Made by a program: the position numbers and the translations under genes
Part shown: in pieces, positions 3,988-54,959 of the stretch
How the letters are laid out: every line of letters begins with the position of its first letter
Position numbering within the stretch: the first letter of the stretch is position 1
Notes under the pieces: generated by a model
Databases searched by the model: none
Seen by the model: the letters and a program-made list of their open reading frames with translations, nothing else
What the model was told of the DNA's origin: nothing
From: Anaeromyxobacter sp. Fw109-5
Lineage (GTDB): Bacteria > Myxococcota > Myxococcia > Myxococcales > Anaeromyxobacteraceae
Reading direction: 5' to 3'
Assembly (NCBI RefSeq): GCF_000017505.1
Contig: NC_009675.1
Span: 1,922,001 to 1,986,000, forward strand
Length of the DNA: 64,000 nucleotides

Positions 3988-4001
3988 TTGATCCGGATCA
4001 G
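3988..4001 (+). promoter_or_regulatory. FNR/CRP-family-like box upstream of the cytochrome c assembly operon
   Basis: TTGATCCGGATCAG matches the FNR consensus TTGAT-N4-ATCAA at 9 of 10 positions. Its centre lies about 57 bases before the start of the lipoprotein-resB-ccsA operon. A class II site centred at -41.5 would put transcription near 4036. Oxygen-responsive control of cytochrome c maturation would make biological sense, but a single site is only suggestive. Confidence 0.45.
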
Positions 4002-15224: not shown

Positions 15225-17516
15225 TCAGGCAGGCGCGGCGGGGGTCAGGCCGGGCTCCTGCGGCGCGGCCGCGTGCACGCGGCGCGGCAGCTCCACGGTG
15301 AACGTGGCGCCCTCGCCGGGCGCGCTCTCCACCCGCACGGTCCCCCCGAGCGACTCCACGATCTCGCGCACGATCCAGAGGCCGAGGCCGAACCCGCCGT
15401 AGCTCCGCTTGGACACCGCGCGCTCGAAGCGCCCGAAGATGCGCGCCTGATCCTCGGGCGAGATCCCGATCCCGCGGTCCCGCACCGACGCGATCGCGCG
15501 CTCGCCGTGGCCCTCCACCCGCACCTCGACCGGCTGGTTCGGCCCGTACTTGATGGCGTTCGACACGAGGTTCGTGAGCACCTGGTCGAGCCGGAGCCGG
15601 TCCCACGACCCCGGCACCGGCTCGGGCGCGGAGAGCACGAGCTCGCACCCCGCGCGGCGCGCCTCGTCCTCGAACCGGCCGACGACGTCGCGGGCGAGCT
15701 CGGCGAGATCGAACGACTCGATCTCCAGCTCGAGCCGGCCGGCGGTGATCCGCGAGAGATCGAGCAGGCTCGCCACGAGGCGCGCGAGCCGGTCGACGTT
15801 GCGGCGGATGACCTCGGCCTTGCGCGCCACGTCCTCGACCCCGAGCCGCGTGGCCCGCGCGCGCAGGCTCTCCGACTGGAGCGCCAGCGAGGTGAGCGGG
15901 GTGCGCAGCTCGTGAGAGGCGATGGAGAGGAACTCGTCGCGCTCGCGGATGGCGTTCTGCGCCGCTGCGTACAGGCGCGACGTGTCCACCGCCGCGCCGA
16001 CGAGCCGGGCGAGATCCGTGGCGAGCCGAACGTCGCCCCGCCCGAAGCGGCGGCTGGACGCGCCGAGCAGCGTGATCGCGCCCAGCCGCTCGCCGCGCGA
16101 GGACAGCGCGACGGTGAGGGAGGACCCGACGCCCGCCTCCCGCAGCGCCGCCGCGAGCGCGGGGGCTCGCGCCGCGAGGGCGATCCGCTCCGGGTCGAAG
16201 CCGTTCCGCGCCCGCGGGTGACCCCCCGCGAGCGTGGCGCCGGGGCCGATCTCGGCGTCGCGCTCGAACCCGGCGCCGTCGAGCGCGGACCCCAGGCGGG
16301 CGGCGAGCCGGGGATCGCGGTGCCCCACGCTCCAGCGCGGGCCCTCCGGCTCTTCCAGGTAGACGATGCAGGTCTCCGCGGCGCGCTCGGCAGCGAGGTC
16401 CGCGACCGCCGCGACCGTGGTGGAGTAGTCGAGGGACGAGGAGAGCACCTTCCCCGCCTCGGCGAGGAACGCCGCGCGGCGCGCCGACAGCTCCGCTCGG
16501 CTGCGGGCCTTCACCTCGTCGCGCGTCACCCAGAACAGCAGGAGCGTCAGCGCCAGGCCGGCGACCGCCACGCCGAGGGGCAGGAATCGCTCCGTCGCGG
16601 TCGCGAAGCGCGGACCCGCCTGGTAGTGAAGCGTCCACGGGCGGCCGGCGATCTCGACGCGCCGCACGAGGGTGAGCGCGGTCCGCTCGCCGGGAGCCCT
16701 CGCGTCGAAGAGGATCGCCGCGGGGCCGAGCTCTCCGCCGTCGTAGACCGAGAGCCCGACCTCCTTCGCCGTCGTCTCTCCCACCGCCCCGCGCAGCAGG
16801 TCGCCGGCGCGAAAGGGCGCGTAGATCCAGCCCCGCAGCTGCTCCCGGCGCTCCTCCAGCGTCCGGGGAGCGCCCGAGTACACCGGAACGTAGACGAGGA
16901 AGCCGGCCTGGCGCTCGGCCCCGGCCTCCTGCACGAGCTCCACGCGCCGCGTGGCGGAGGGCTCGCCGGTGTCGCGGGCCCGGGCCATCGCCGCCCGCCG
17001 GATCGGCTCGGAGAACATGTCGTAGCCGATCGCCCGCTGGTTCCTCCAGTCGAGCGGCTCGAGCAGGACGATGCTCGAGTAGAGCTCGCGCGCTCCGGGG
17101 GGCCAGATCCGGTAATCCGGCCGCCCTGCGGCGCGCTGTTCCCCCTCGTGCGCCTCGAGCTCGTCGGGGAGCACCAGCTTGCTCCAGCCGATACCCTGGA
17201 TCCCGGGGTATCGCCGGCCGAGCTCGAGGCTCGCGACGAAGTCGCGGAACGCGAGCGCCGACGGGTCTCCCCCGACCGCGATGACGAAGCCGCGTCCGGC
17301 GCGGAGCATGGCCTCGTAGGCGCTCATCCGCTCGGTCAAGGCGGTGGTCGTCCGCTCCGCCTCGTCCATGAAGCGGTTGGTCGACTGGGCGCCGATCGCC
17401 GTGCGGGTGAGCTGCCAGGCGGCCACCGTGGCGAGCAGCCCAAGGACGAGCACGACCACCGGCGTCAGGTGATGGCGGAGCGCCGCGCGCGCCGATGAGA
17501 GGATCCGCCTCGGCAT
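15225..17516 (-). CDS. CHASE-GAF hybrid-free sensor histidine kinase
   Basis: A 763-residue membrane sensor kinase. Helix 1 lies at about 17-37. A CHASE domain (about 75-270) is marked by YPGIQGIGWSKLV and GYDMFSEPIRRAAMARARDTG, and helix 2 lies at about 300-322. A GAF domain (about 345-505) leads to HisKA with the phosphorylated His at residue 535 in SIASHELRTPL, then HATPase_c with LVSNAIKYG, DRGIGISPEDQ and GFGLGLWIV. CHASE domains bind small extracellular ligands. No response regulator is adjacent, so it is an orphan kinase whose partner lies elsewhere. It sits upstream of the lipoprotein-MFS pair on the same strand with a 63-base gap. Confidence 0.93.
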   Translation of the reverse strand: MPRRILSSARAALRHHLTPVVVLVLGLLATVAAWQLTRTAIGAQSTNRFMDEAERTTTALTERMSAYEAMLRAGRGFVIAVGGDPSALAFRDFVASLELGRRYPGIQGIGWSKLVLPDELEAHEGEQRAAGRPDYRIWPPGARELYSSIVLLEPLDWRNQRAIGYDMFSEPIRRAAMARARDTGEPSATRRVELVQEAGAERQAGFLVYVPVYSGAPRTLEERREQLRGWIYAPFRAGDLLRGAVGETTAKEVGLSVYDGGELGPAAILFDARAPGERTALTLVRRVEIAGRPWTLHYQAGPRFATATERFLPLGVAVAGLALTLLLFWVTRDEVKARSRAELSARRAAFLAEAGKVLSSSLDYSTTVAAVADLAAERAAETCIVYLEEPEGPRWSVGHRDPRLAARLGSALDGAGFERDAEIGPGATLAGGHPRARNGFDPERIALAARAPALAAALREAGVGSSLTVALSSRGERLGAITLLGASSRRFGRGDVRLATDLARLVGAAVDTSRLYAAAQNAIRERDEFLSIASHELRTPLTSLALQSESLRARATRLGVEDVARKAEVIRRNVDRLARLVASLLDLSRITAGRLELEIESFDLAELARDVVGRFEDEARRAGCELVLSAPEPVPGSWDRLRLDQVLTNLVSNAIKYGPNQPVEVRVEGHGERAIASVRDRGIGISPEDQARIFGRFERAVSKRSYGGFGLGLWIVREIVESLGGTVRVESAPGEGATFTVELPRRVHAAAPQEPGLTPAAPA

Positions 17517-17762: not shown

Positions 17763-17776
17763 CTGATCTGGATCAA
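17763..17776 (+). promoter_or_regulatory. FNR-like box upstream of Fur-fragment/bfd operon
   Basis: CTGATCTGGATCAA matches TTGAT-N4-ATCAA at 9 of 10 positions. If activation is class II (-41.5), transcription would start near 17811, inside the Fur-like palindrome immediately downstream. Confidence 0.45.
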
Positions 17777-17801
17777 CATGCGCTCTTCGGCGGCGTGTTA
17801 C

Positions 17802-17816
17802 TGAGATTGCGTCTCA
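17802..17816 (+). promoter_or_regulatory. Fur-like operator
   Basis: TGAGATTGCGTCTCA is a perfect 5-5-5 inverted repeat (TGAGA-N5-TCTCA) resembling the 7-1-7 Fur box in outer half-sites. It lies 26 bases before the start of the operon encoding a Fur C-terminal domain and a Bfd-like ferredoxin, an appropriate place for an iron-responsive repressor. Confidence 0.4.
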
Positions 17817-17841
17817 TGCACTCGCAGCCCTCGAGCCCCGC

Positions 17842-18066
17842 GTGAACCATCGGACCGACCCAGCCTCTGCTCCAGCCCCTGACGCCCTCCGCTGCGCCGA
17901 CCAGCTCGTCTGCACGCGATGTGGCGGAGTGACGCGGCTCGACCTGTCCGAGGCGCTCACGGGCGCGCGGGCTCGCGCCGCCGCGCAGGGGCTCGCGGTG
18001 GAGTCCCATTCGCTGACCGTGTACGGCCGCTGCTGGCTCTGCCGGGCGCCGGAGGTGCGGGCGTGA
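17842..18066 (+). CDS. Stand-alone Fur-family C-terminal (dimerisation/zinc) domain
   Basis: A 74-residue protein resembling the C-terminal half of Fur. LVCTRCGGVTRLD has the first CxxC, followed by a helix of about 22 residues (LSEALTGARARAAAQGLAVE), then SHSLTVYGRCWLCR with the second CxxC. In Fur these four cysteines bind structural zinc and the domain forms the dimer. The N-terminal winged helix (about 80 residues) is absent, and none is encoded in the 325 bases upstream in any frame. The GTG start was chosen because the frame closes shortly before. The stop overlaps the start of the Bfd-like gene. It could titrate Fur by heterodimer formation, bind zinc, or be a decaying remnant; its intact cysteines argue against decay. 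Confidence 0.75.
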   Translation: MNHRTDPASAPAPDALRCADQLVCTRCGGVTRLDLSEALTGARARAAAQGLAVESHSLTVYGRCWLCRAPEVRA

Positions 18067-18266
18067 AGATCTGCGTCTGCCGGGACGTGTCGGACGGGCT
18101 GCTGCGCGACGCGGTGCGGTGCGGGCGGTCGGTCGAGGACGTCATCGAGGCGACCGGCGCCGGCTCGGACTGCGGCGCCTGCGCCGGAGCGCTCGCGCGC
18201 ATCGCGGAGGCGGCGCGGGCGGAGCGCGTCGTCCTCCGGACGCCGGCGCCCGCGAAGGCCGCGTGA
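18063..18266 (+). CDS. bfd: Bacterioferritin-associated ferredoxin-like (2Fe-2S) protein
   Basis: A 67-residue Bfd-like protein with cysteines in the BFD arrangement: KICVCRDVSD (CxC) and, about 30 residues later, GSDCGACAGALARI (CxxC). This set holds a [2Fe-2S] cluster. Bfd donates electrons to bacterioferritin to release stored iron and is classically Fur-repressed. The GTG start at 18063 overlaps the TGA of the Fur-domain gene (GTGA), so the two are translationally coupled behind a Fur-like operator. No bacterioferritin gene is adjacent. The domain is also found in NirB and NifU-type proteins, but the free-standing length supports Bfd. Confidence 0.88.
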   Translation: MKICVCRDVSDGLLRDAVRCGRSVEDVIEATGAGSDCGACAGALARIAEAARAERVVLRTPAPAKAA

Positions 18267-18303: not shown

Positions 18304-22965
<4,662 letters not shown>

Positions 22966-54663: not shown

Positions 54664-54959
54664 TCCCGAGACCGCGAATCGAGCAGGAGCCCCGCCGCGC
54701 CCGTTCCTCATGGGTTGCCTCACCCCTGCCGCCCTCCGCTGAACGCGGCACATGGACCGATGTAGTCGATATTGACCGAACAAGTCCACGTTCGCGATAC
54801 GCGCCGGGAACTCGCGATCGCGGCCAGGGGTGCAACGTGATCCGTATCAAATCGGCTGCCGCAAGTACGCGAATTAACAGGACCTCGCGACAAGTTGCCG
54901 CATCGCGCGGGTGCGCGTGAACCCGTATTCGAAGACGCAACGGTTCATCGGGAGGCGCC
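54664..54959. other. 296-bp gap holding an FNR-like box
   Basis: There is no gene. Between 54725 and 54910 the sequence is less GC-rich than the surroundings and contains the box at 54837-54850. I see no further site or terminator. Confidence 0.5.
54837..54850 (+). promoter_or_regulatory. FNR-like box upstream of small membrane protein
   Basis: GTGATCCGTATCAA matches TTGAT-N4-ATCAA at 9 of 10. Its centre is about 117 bases before the ATG, leaving a long leader of about 75 bases if it is a class II site. Confidence 0.4.

Follow-up and report, generated by a model that had tools for sequence, protein, structure and literature searches.

A Fur C-terminal domain lacking the DNA-binding part, coupled to a Bfd-like ferredoxin behind FNR-type and Fur boxes in Anaeromyxobacter

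A protein of 74 residues that is, by sequence and predicted fold, a homologue of the C-terminal domain of Fur is encoded immediately before a Bfd-like [2Fe-2S] ferredoxin in Anaeromyxobacter sp. Fw109-5, and this pair of overlapping genes is conserved in six Anaeromyxobacter genomes. The window, that is, the whole stretch of 64,000 nucleotides analysed here, corresponds to bases 1922001-1986000 of the genome, which is a single contig of 5,277,990 bases. Judged from its sequence, the locus combines known parts, namely a Fur domain, Bfd, a Fur box and an FNR-type box, in a new way. With a confidence that falls somewhat short of even, we read it as a conserved two-gene iron-mobilisation unit in which the Fur fragment would act as a Cys4 partner of Bfd.

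The gene of the fragment occupies positions 17842-18066 on the plus strand and starts with GTG. As the initial annotation had described, it carries the dimer/zinc domain of Fur with both CxxC pairs (CTRC and CWLC) and without the winged helix. Residues 20-61 align to positions 80-121 of the 121-position FUR profile of Pfam (PF01475), i.e., to its last third, with a score of 16.1 bits that is under the curated cut-off of 23.1, so that the family threshold is missed. When the fragment is compared with chains of solved structures by phmmer, matches to Zur and Fur appear from E 0.0027 (XcZur). An AlphaFold2 model has a mean pLDDT of 70.5, with core blocks at 70-90, and a predicted topology of strand-strand-helix-strand-short helix; a Foldseek search of the PDB with this model ranks Fur/Zur/PerR proteins at the top (probability 1.00, E 8e-4), and all 50 of the 50 matches listed are Fur, Zur, Nur or PerR entries or complexes.

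Which parts of the Fur domain are retained in the fragment? The four cysteines of the structural (S1) site, C24, C27, C64 and C67, are unchanged in all six genomes, conservation within the protein peaks at the Cys4 knuckles, and the best-kept stretches over both clades of the genus that carry it are LVCTRCG and CxxCRA. In E. coli Fur, dimerization is driven by the equivalent cysteines, which take up Zn or [2Fe-2S] (PMC12538065). The full-length Furs of the family retain the HHDH, two Glu and His ligands, whereas the fragments have lost HHDH and both Glu residues (Glu101 and Glu108 in E. coli numbering), except for an Asp89-equivalent in the clade of the window. A His125-equivalent persists only in the fragments of that clade, and those of the other clade are without any sensing ligand. 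Judged by its residues, the fragment is devoid of the DNA-binding domain of a Fur regulator and has lost most of the two His/Glu sensing sites. Position 26 is Arg in all the fragments, in comparison with G, S, V or A in the cognate Furs. The retention of LVCTRCG and CRA as fragment-specific motifs, together with the disappearance of HHDH and the E108-type ligands, supports a role beside Bfd. On the other side, the strand VESHSLTVYGRC of the fragment resembles the dimer strand VESHKLELYGRC of the cognate Fur, and such a Fur-like strand would equally be retained by a protein that binds Fur.

Conserved cysteines in two CxxC knuckles and a ferredoxin as the neighbour might also suggest a rubredoxin-like protein, whose Cys4 site would bind one Fe and pass electrons to Bfd or bacterioferritin, the Fur fold being reused as a carrier. 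There is only a slim chance of this: in Fur proteins, the S1 site is usually occupied by Zn, or by [2Fe-2S] in the case of E. coli (PMC12538065), and the fragment has no match to the rubredoxin models in Pfam and NCBIfam.

A small piece of Fur in a genome sequence also raises the prosaic possibility of a truncated or frameshifted fur gene, caused by an assembly error or by pseudogene formation, and the sub-threshold Pfam score is compatible with it. A frameshift restoring the N-terminus of Fur, which had been named as the refutation of the initial reading, is not present upstream in any frame: an N-terminal profile of Fur gave no match in six frames over the 900 bp preceding the fragment in the six genomes, while the same profile detects the full-length Furs of the genus, used as a positive control, at E 1e-45. 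Six independent assemblies give fragments of much the same length (73-79 aa), and a conserved promoter stands directly 5′ of them. Frameshift and pseudogene were ruled out by the conservation over six genomes and the lack of an upstream Fur N-terminus, and a broken fur is hardly credible. A search of the genome for full-length Fur, as the initial annotation had proposed, found two full-length genes of the Fur family.

The bfd gene at 18063-18266 (plus strand, GTG start) encodes 67 aa with the cysteines C4, C6, C37 and C40 in the C-x-C...C-x2-C arrangement, and its product matches PF04324 with 42.5 bits, above the cut-off of 26. Bfd is an electron carrier for iron release (PMC12363616). The overlap between the stop of the fragment and the free-standing ferredoxin, already pointed out from the sequence, lies at 18063-18066, where the TGA within GTGA is common to both genes; it measures 4 bp in all six loci and suggests translational coupling. 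In the window, A. soli and A. terrae, the order is a divergent histidine kinase, the fragment, bfd and an lhr helicase. In the window, the neighbours outside the module are a CHASE-GAF histidine kinase (15225-17516, minus strand; Pfam), which is also the neighbour in the L004 and L005 relatives, and an Lhr-type helicase (18304-22965, plus strand; Pfam Lhr domains). In the other clade (G001, G002 and G006), the fragment and bfd are followed by bacterioferritin, confirmed by TIGR00754 with 203.7 bits. This maintenance of the pair with an invariant overlap in two neighbourhoods, and the running on of the operon into bacterioferritin in three genomes, support the reading of the fragment as a partner of Bfd, while the fact that bacterioferritin is not adjacent to the pair in the genome of the window counts against it. 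The same genome has a second stand-alone bfd together with a gene of the ferritin family near the main fur (L041, G000:C1:2548000-2562000).

How widely is the short form distributed? The pair is thus conserved in related genomes, the absence of which would have spoken against the initial reading, and in a survey confined to 195 genomes of Myxococcota the short form occurs in these six alone; the other matches listed there are longer frames fitting a full-length Fur, except one that is cut by a contig end. Two genomes of the same genus (G003 and G004) have no fragment and carry a Fur box, bfd and bfr instead. A scan of genome contigs with the single fragment sequence gave no match, and one with an alignment recovered A. 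soli and A. terrae plus matches in Chloroflexota; the latter were rejected as fragments, since they are full-length genes of the Fur family beside a ZnuA-like gene (named by eye). A tblastn search of plasmids for the fragment found nothing. A tree of 52 residues separates the fragments from the Furs, and it is too short for dating the origin of the fragment.

Upstream of the pair, an FNR-like box and a palindrome had been noticed in the initial annotation, and both were found at their places. The former, CTGATCTGGATCAA at 17763-17776 on the plus strand, agrees with TTGAT-N4-ATCAA of the FNR/CRP family at 9 of 10 positions, and equivalent boxes are seen at the same place in the five other genomes (TTGATCCGGATCAC, TTGATCCAGGTCAT and TTGA(T/C)GGGCGTCAT); the six boxes score 7-9/10. 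The window has 3 sites with one mismatch, a significant excess over the 0.03 expected, and the whole genome has 23 against 4 in a control with the reversed pattern; exact boxes are absent from the genome, and 'FNR-like' therefore denotes the one-mismatch class. Some of the genome-wide sites precede cytochrome-biogenesis or multihaem-like genes. The distance from the box to the palindrome is 39 nt in the clade of the window and 38 nt in the other. In six promoters of bfd genes without the fragment, the FNR-type box is missing (6/6; best score 5-6/10), and at least three of the six carry a TTGACC element resembling a -35. A plain -35 was considered for TTGATC in the pair's own promoter and rejected, as there is no -10 at the usual spacing downstream in the three loci of the window clade. 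With a box at about -41.5 and conserved spacing in six genomes, the arrangement appears to be that of a class II FNR-type promoter. A candidate reader of the box is a regulator of the CRP/FNR family (L099, G000:C1:2826026). Its recognition helix reads ETLSR and CxxC-x9-C stands close to its N-terminus; no curated model classifies it as FNR. Two further FNR-type sites of the window are TTGATCCGGATCAG at 3988-4001 and GTGATCCGTATCAA at 54837-54850. The former lies some 50 bp upstream of a lipoprotein-like gene, after which come ResB/CcsA-like genes for cytochrome c biogenesis (named by eye), and the latter lies 110 bp upstream of a membrane-like ORF of 90 aa. At the former, TAACCT lies 17 bp after TTGATC, which could also be a -35.

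The palindrome of the form TGAGA-N5-TCTCA, TGAGATTGCGTCTCA at 17802-17816, looks like a diverged Fur box of the 7-1-7 type. Its occurrence in the window is not significant alone (one found with one mismatch allowed, against 0.83 expected), but in the genome it is rare, with two places in 5.28 Mb. It is taken for a Fur box because classical Fur boxes (TGATAATGATTCTCA and relatives) precede the bfd genes that lack the fragment, and because a similar box, TGAGAATCGTTATCA, is located near fur, which seems to carry a Fur box of its own. Aligned palindromes are present at all six fragment loci, and this putative Fur box lies over the promoter core, as in a Fur-regulated promoter. A class II start had been predicted to fall inside the palindrome, and the count agrees: the centre of the FNR-type box at 17769.5 plus 41.5 gives 17811. 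At the matching -10 position stands TGTTACTGA (17796-17804, plus strand), an element with an upstream, extended TG whose hexamer is itself a poor match; its consensus TGnTA(C/G)TGA is invariant in the six genomes. When 110 bp upstream are aligned over the six genomes, the invariant columns fall on the TGA and TCA of the FNR-type box, TGnTA, TGAGA.T...TCTCA and the vicinity of the start codon, a few others being dispersed, and TGnTAxTGAGA between the two boxes is invariant in 6/6. The predicted promoter is thus a strong phylogenetic footprint. At three loci (L029, L031 and L028), an alternative upstream ATG (MIVRVILNI...) beside the Fur box is tempting as the start of the fragment; it is probably wrong, as the footprint points to the GTG at VHPPRDP.

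What would such a unit do? With ample iron, Fur would block the -10/start region; at low oxygen, an FNR-type regulator sitting at about -41.5 would activate transcription. The pair would thus be produced under iron shortage and anoxia. Bfd might then deliver electrons into bacterioferritin and cause the release of Fe2+. Most likely, the fragment would form a small homodimer with a Cys4 site holding Zn or [2Fe-2S], and this homodimer may work together with Bfd, not in regulation but as its partner for docking or for a cluster or metal. An iron- and oxygen-switched module coupled to Bfd had been proposed in the initial annotation: conservation gives good support to the module with a Fur domain devoid of DNA binding, and the oxygen part rests on the FNR-type site plus a plausible regulator.

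Another possibility, of lower but still considerable weight and in line with the trans-dominant role suggested in the initial annotation, is that the fragment is a natural anti-repressor, which pairs with full-length Fur to give one-armed dimers unable to hold the Fur box; the Fur box in its own promoter would then create a positive feedback sharpening the response to iron starvation. The predicted fold of the Fur dimerization domain, the similarity of the dimer strand to that of the cognate Fur, the Fur box in the promoter and the presence of Fur in the same genome are in favour of it, as is the retention of the Cys4 site needed for dimerization of Fur (PMC12538065), and small partners of Fur are known in principle (YdiV, PMC7515728; the YlaN-Fur model 9a4a). 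On the other hand, the translational coupling is to bfd and not to a regulator, and the fragment is just 33-41% identical to the Fur C-terminal domain. In addition, the fragment and Bfd diverge in step between species (73/74, 71/68, 39/43 and 87/83% identity), while the Fur C-terminal domain is 94, 90, 81 and 96% identical in the same comparisons; between the clades, the values are 39-46% for the fragment, 36-45% for Bfd and 81-85% for the Fur domain. Such co-divergence against a steady Fur domain is unlike what a strict constraint by Fur binding predicts, and speaks mildly for the fragment and Bfd being under a common constraint, as opposed to one imposed by Fur; the evidence is weak, since genes linked at a single locus may have a common history. 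The fuller form of the idea, a dominant-negative Fur which is repressed by Fur, induced anaerobically, disarms Fur by pairing and is made in lockstep with Bfd, so that the change from iron storage to iron use would reinforce itself, is slightly less probable still.

Finally, the fragment might be a remnant, a decaying or leader-like ORF that mainly couples the translation of bfd and whose sequence matters little. It is short and fast evolving, and dN/dS reaches 0.85 in one pair: in the clade of the window, the fragment has ratios of 0.47-0.85 and bfd of 0.55-1.0, calculated from few sites, so that constraint there seems not strong, which also counts against the reading as a Bfd partner. Against a remnant, the Cys4 site, the core residues and the predicted fold are kept despite 39% identity, the gene is maintained in six species and two contexts, and dN/dS in the second clade, a trio of the A. 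dehalogenans type, is low (0.11-0.41 for the fragment, and 0.04 for its core domain in the single pair computed), as under purifying selection. A remnant is thus improbable.

How does the locus compare with known systems? The fragment is like the Fur/Zur/PerR family in its C-terminal sequence, its predicted fold, its Cys4 S1 site and the dimer-strand motif VESH-L--YG-C, and unlike it in having no winged helix and no HHDH/Glu ligands, in scoring under the family cut-off and in its operon coupling to Bfd. With the Fur-controlled bfd-bfr operons, the locus shares the C-x-C...C-x2-C ferredoxin (PF04324), a Fur box and, in three genomes, the adjoining bacterioferritin; the extra upstream gene, the 4-bp overlap, the added FNR-type box and the lack of a clear -35 set it apart. 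The Fur antirepressors YdiV of E. coli and YlaN of Bacillus, whose folds are unrelated to Fur, are also small proteins that might alter Fur activity under iron starvation, whereas the fragment is a piece of Fur itself and its antirepressor activity is putative. Natural truncated, dominant-negative regulators exist, e.g., TrlR, which acts against TraR. Like the fragment, TrlR keeps a dimerization part without the DNA-binding part, but it belongs to a different family, in quorum sensing, and its dominant-negative action was shown by experiment, in contrast to a reading from sequence here. The truncated Fur of H. pylori was rejected as a precedent, as it lacks the opposite domain, and neither a stand-alone Fur dimerization domain nor a truncated or DNA-binding-less Fur paralogue was found in the open-licence literature.

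If the fragment works with Bfd, iron release in bacteria would gain a component. Should it bind Fur, the cell would possess an intrinsic brake on its principal iron regulator, built from a domain of that very protein. In both cases, the fragment may serve as a natural test of the disputed Cys4 site of Fur, Zn or [2Fe-2S], without DNA binding or other metal sites.
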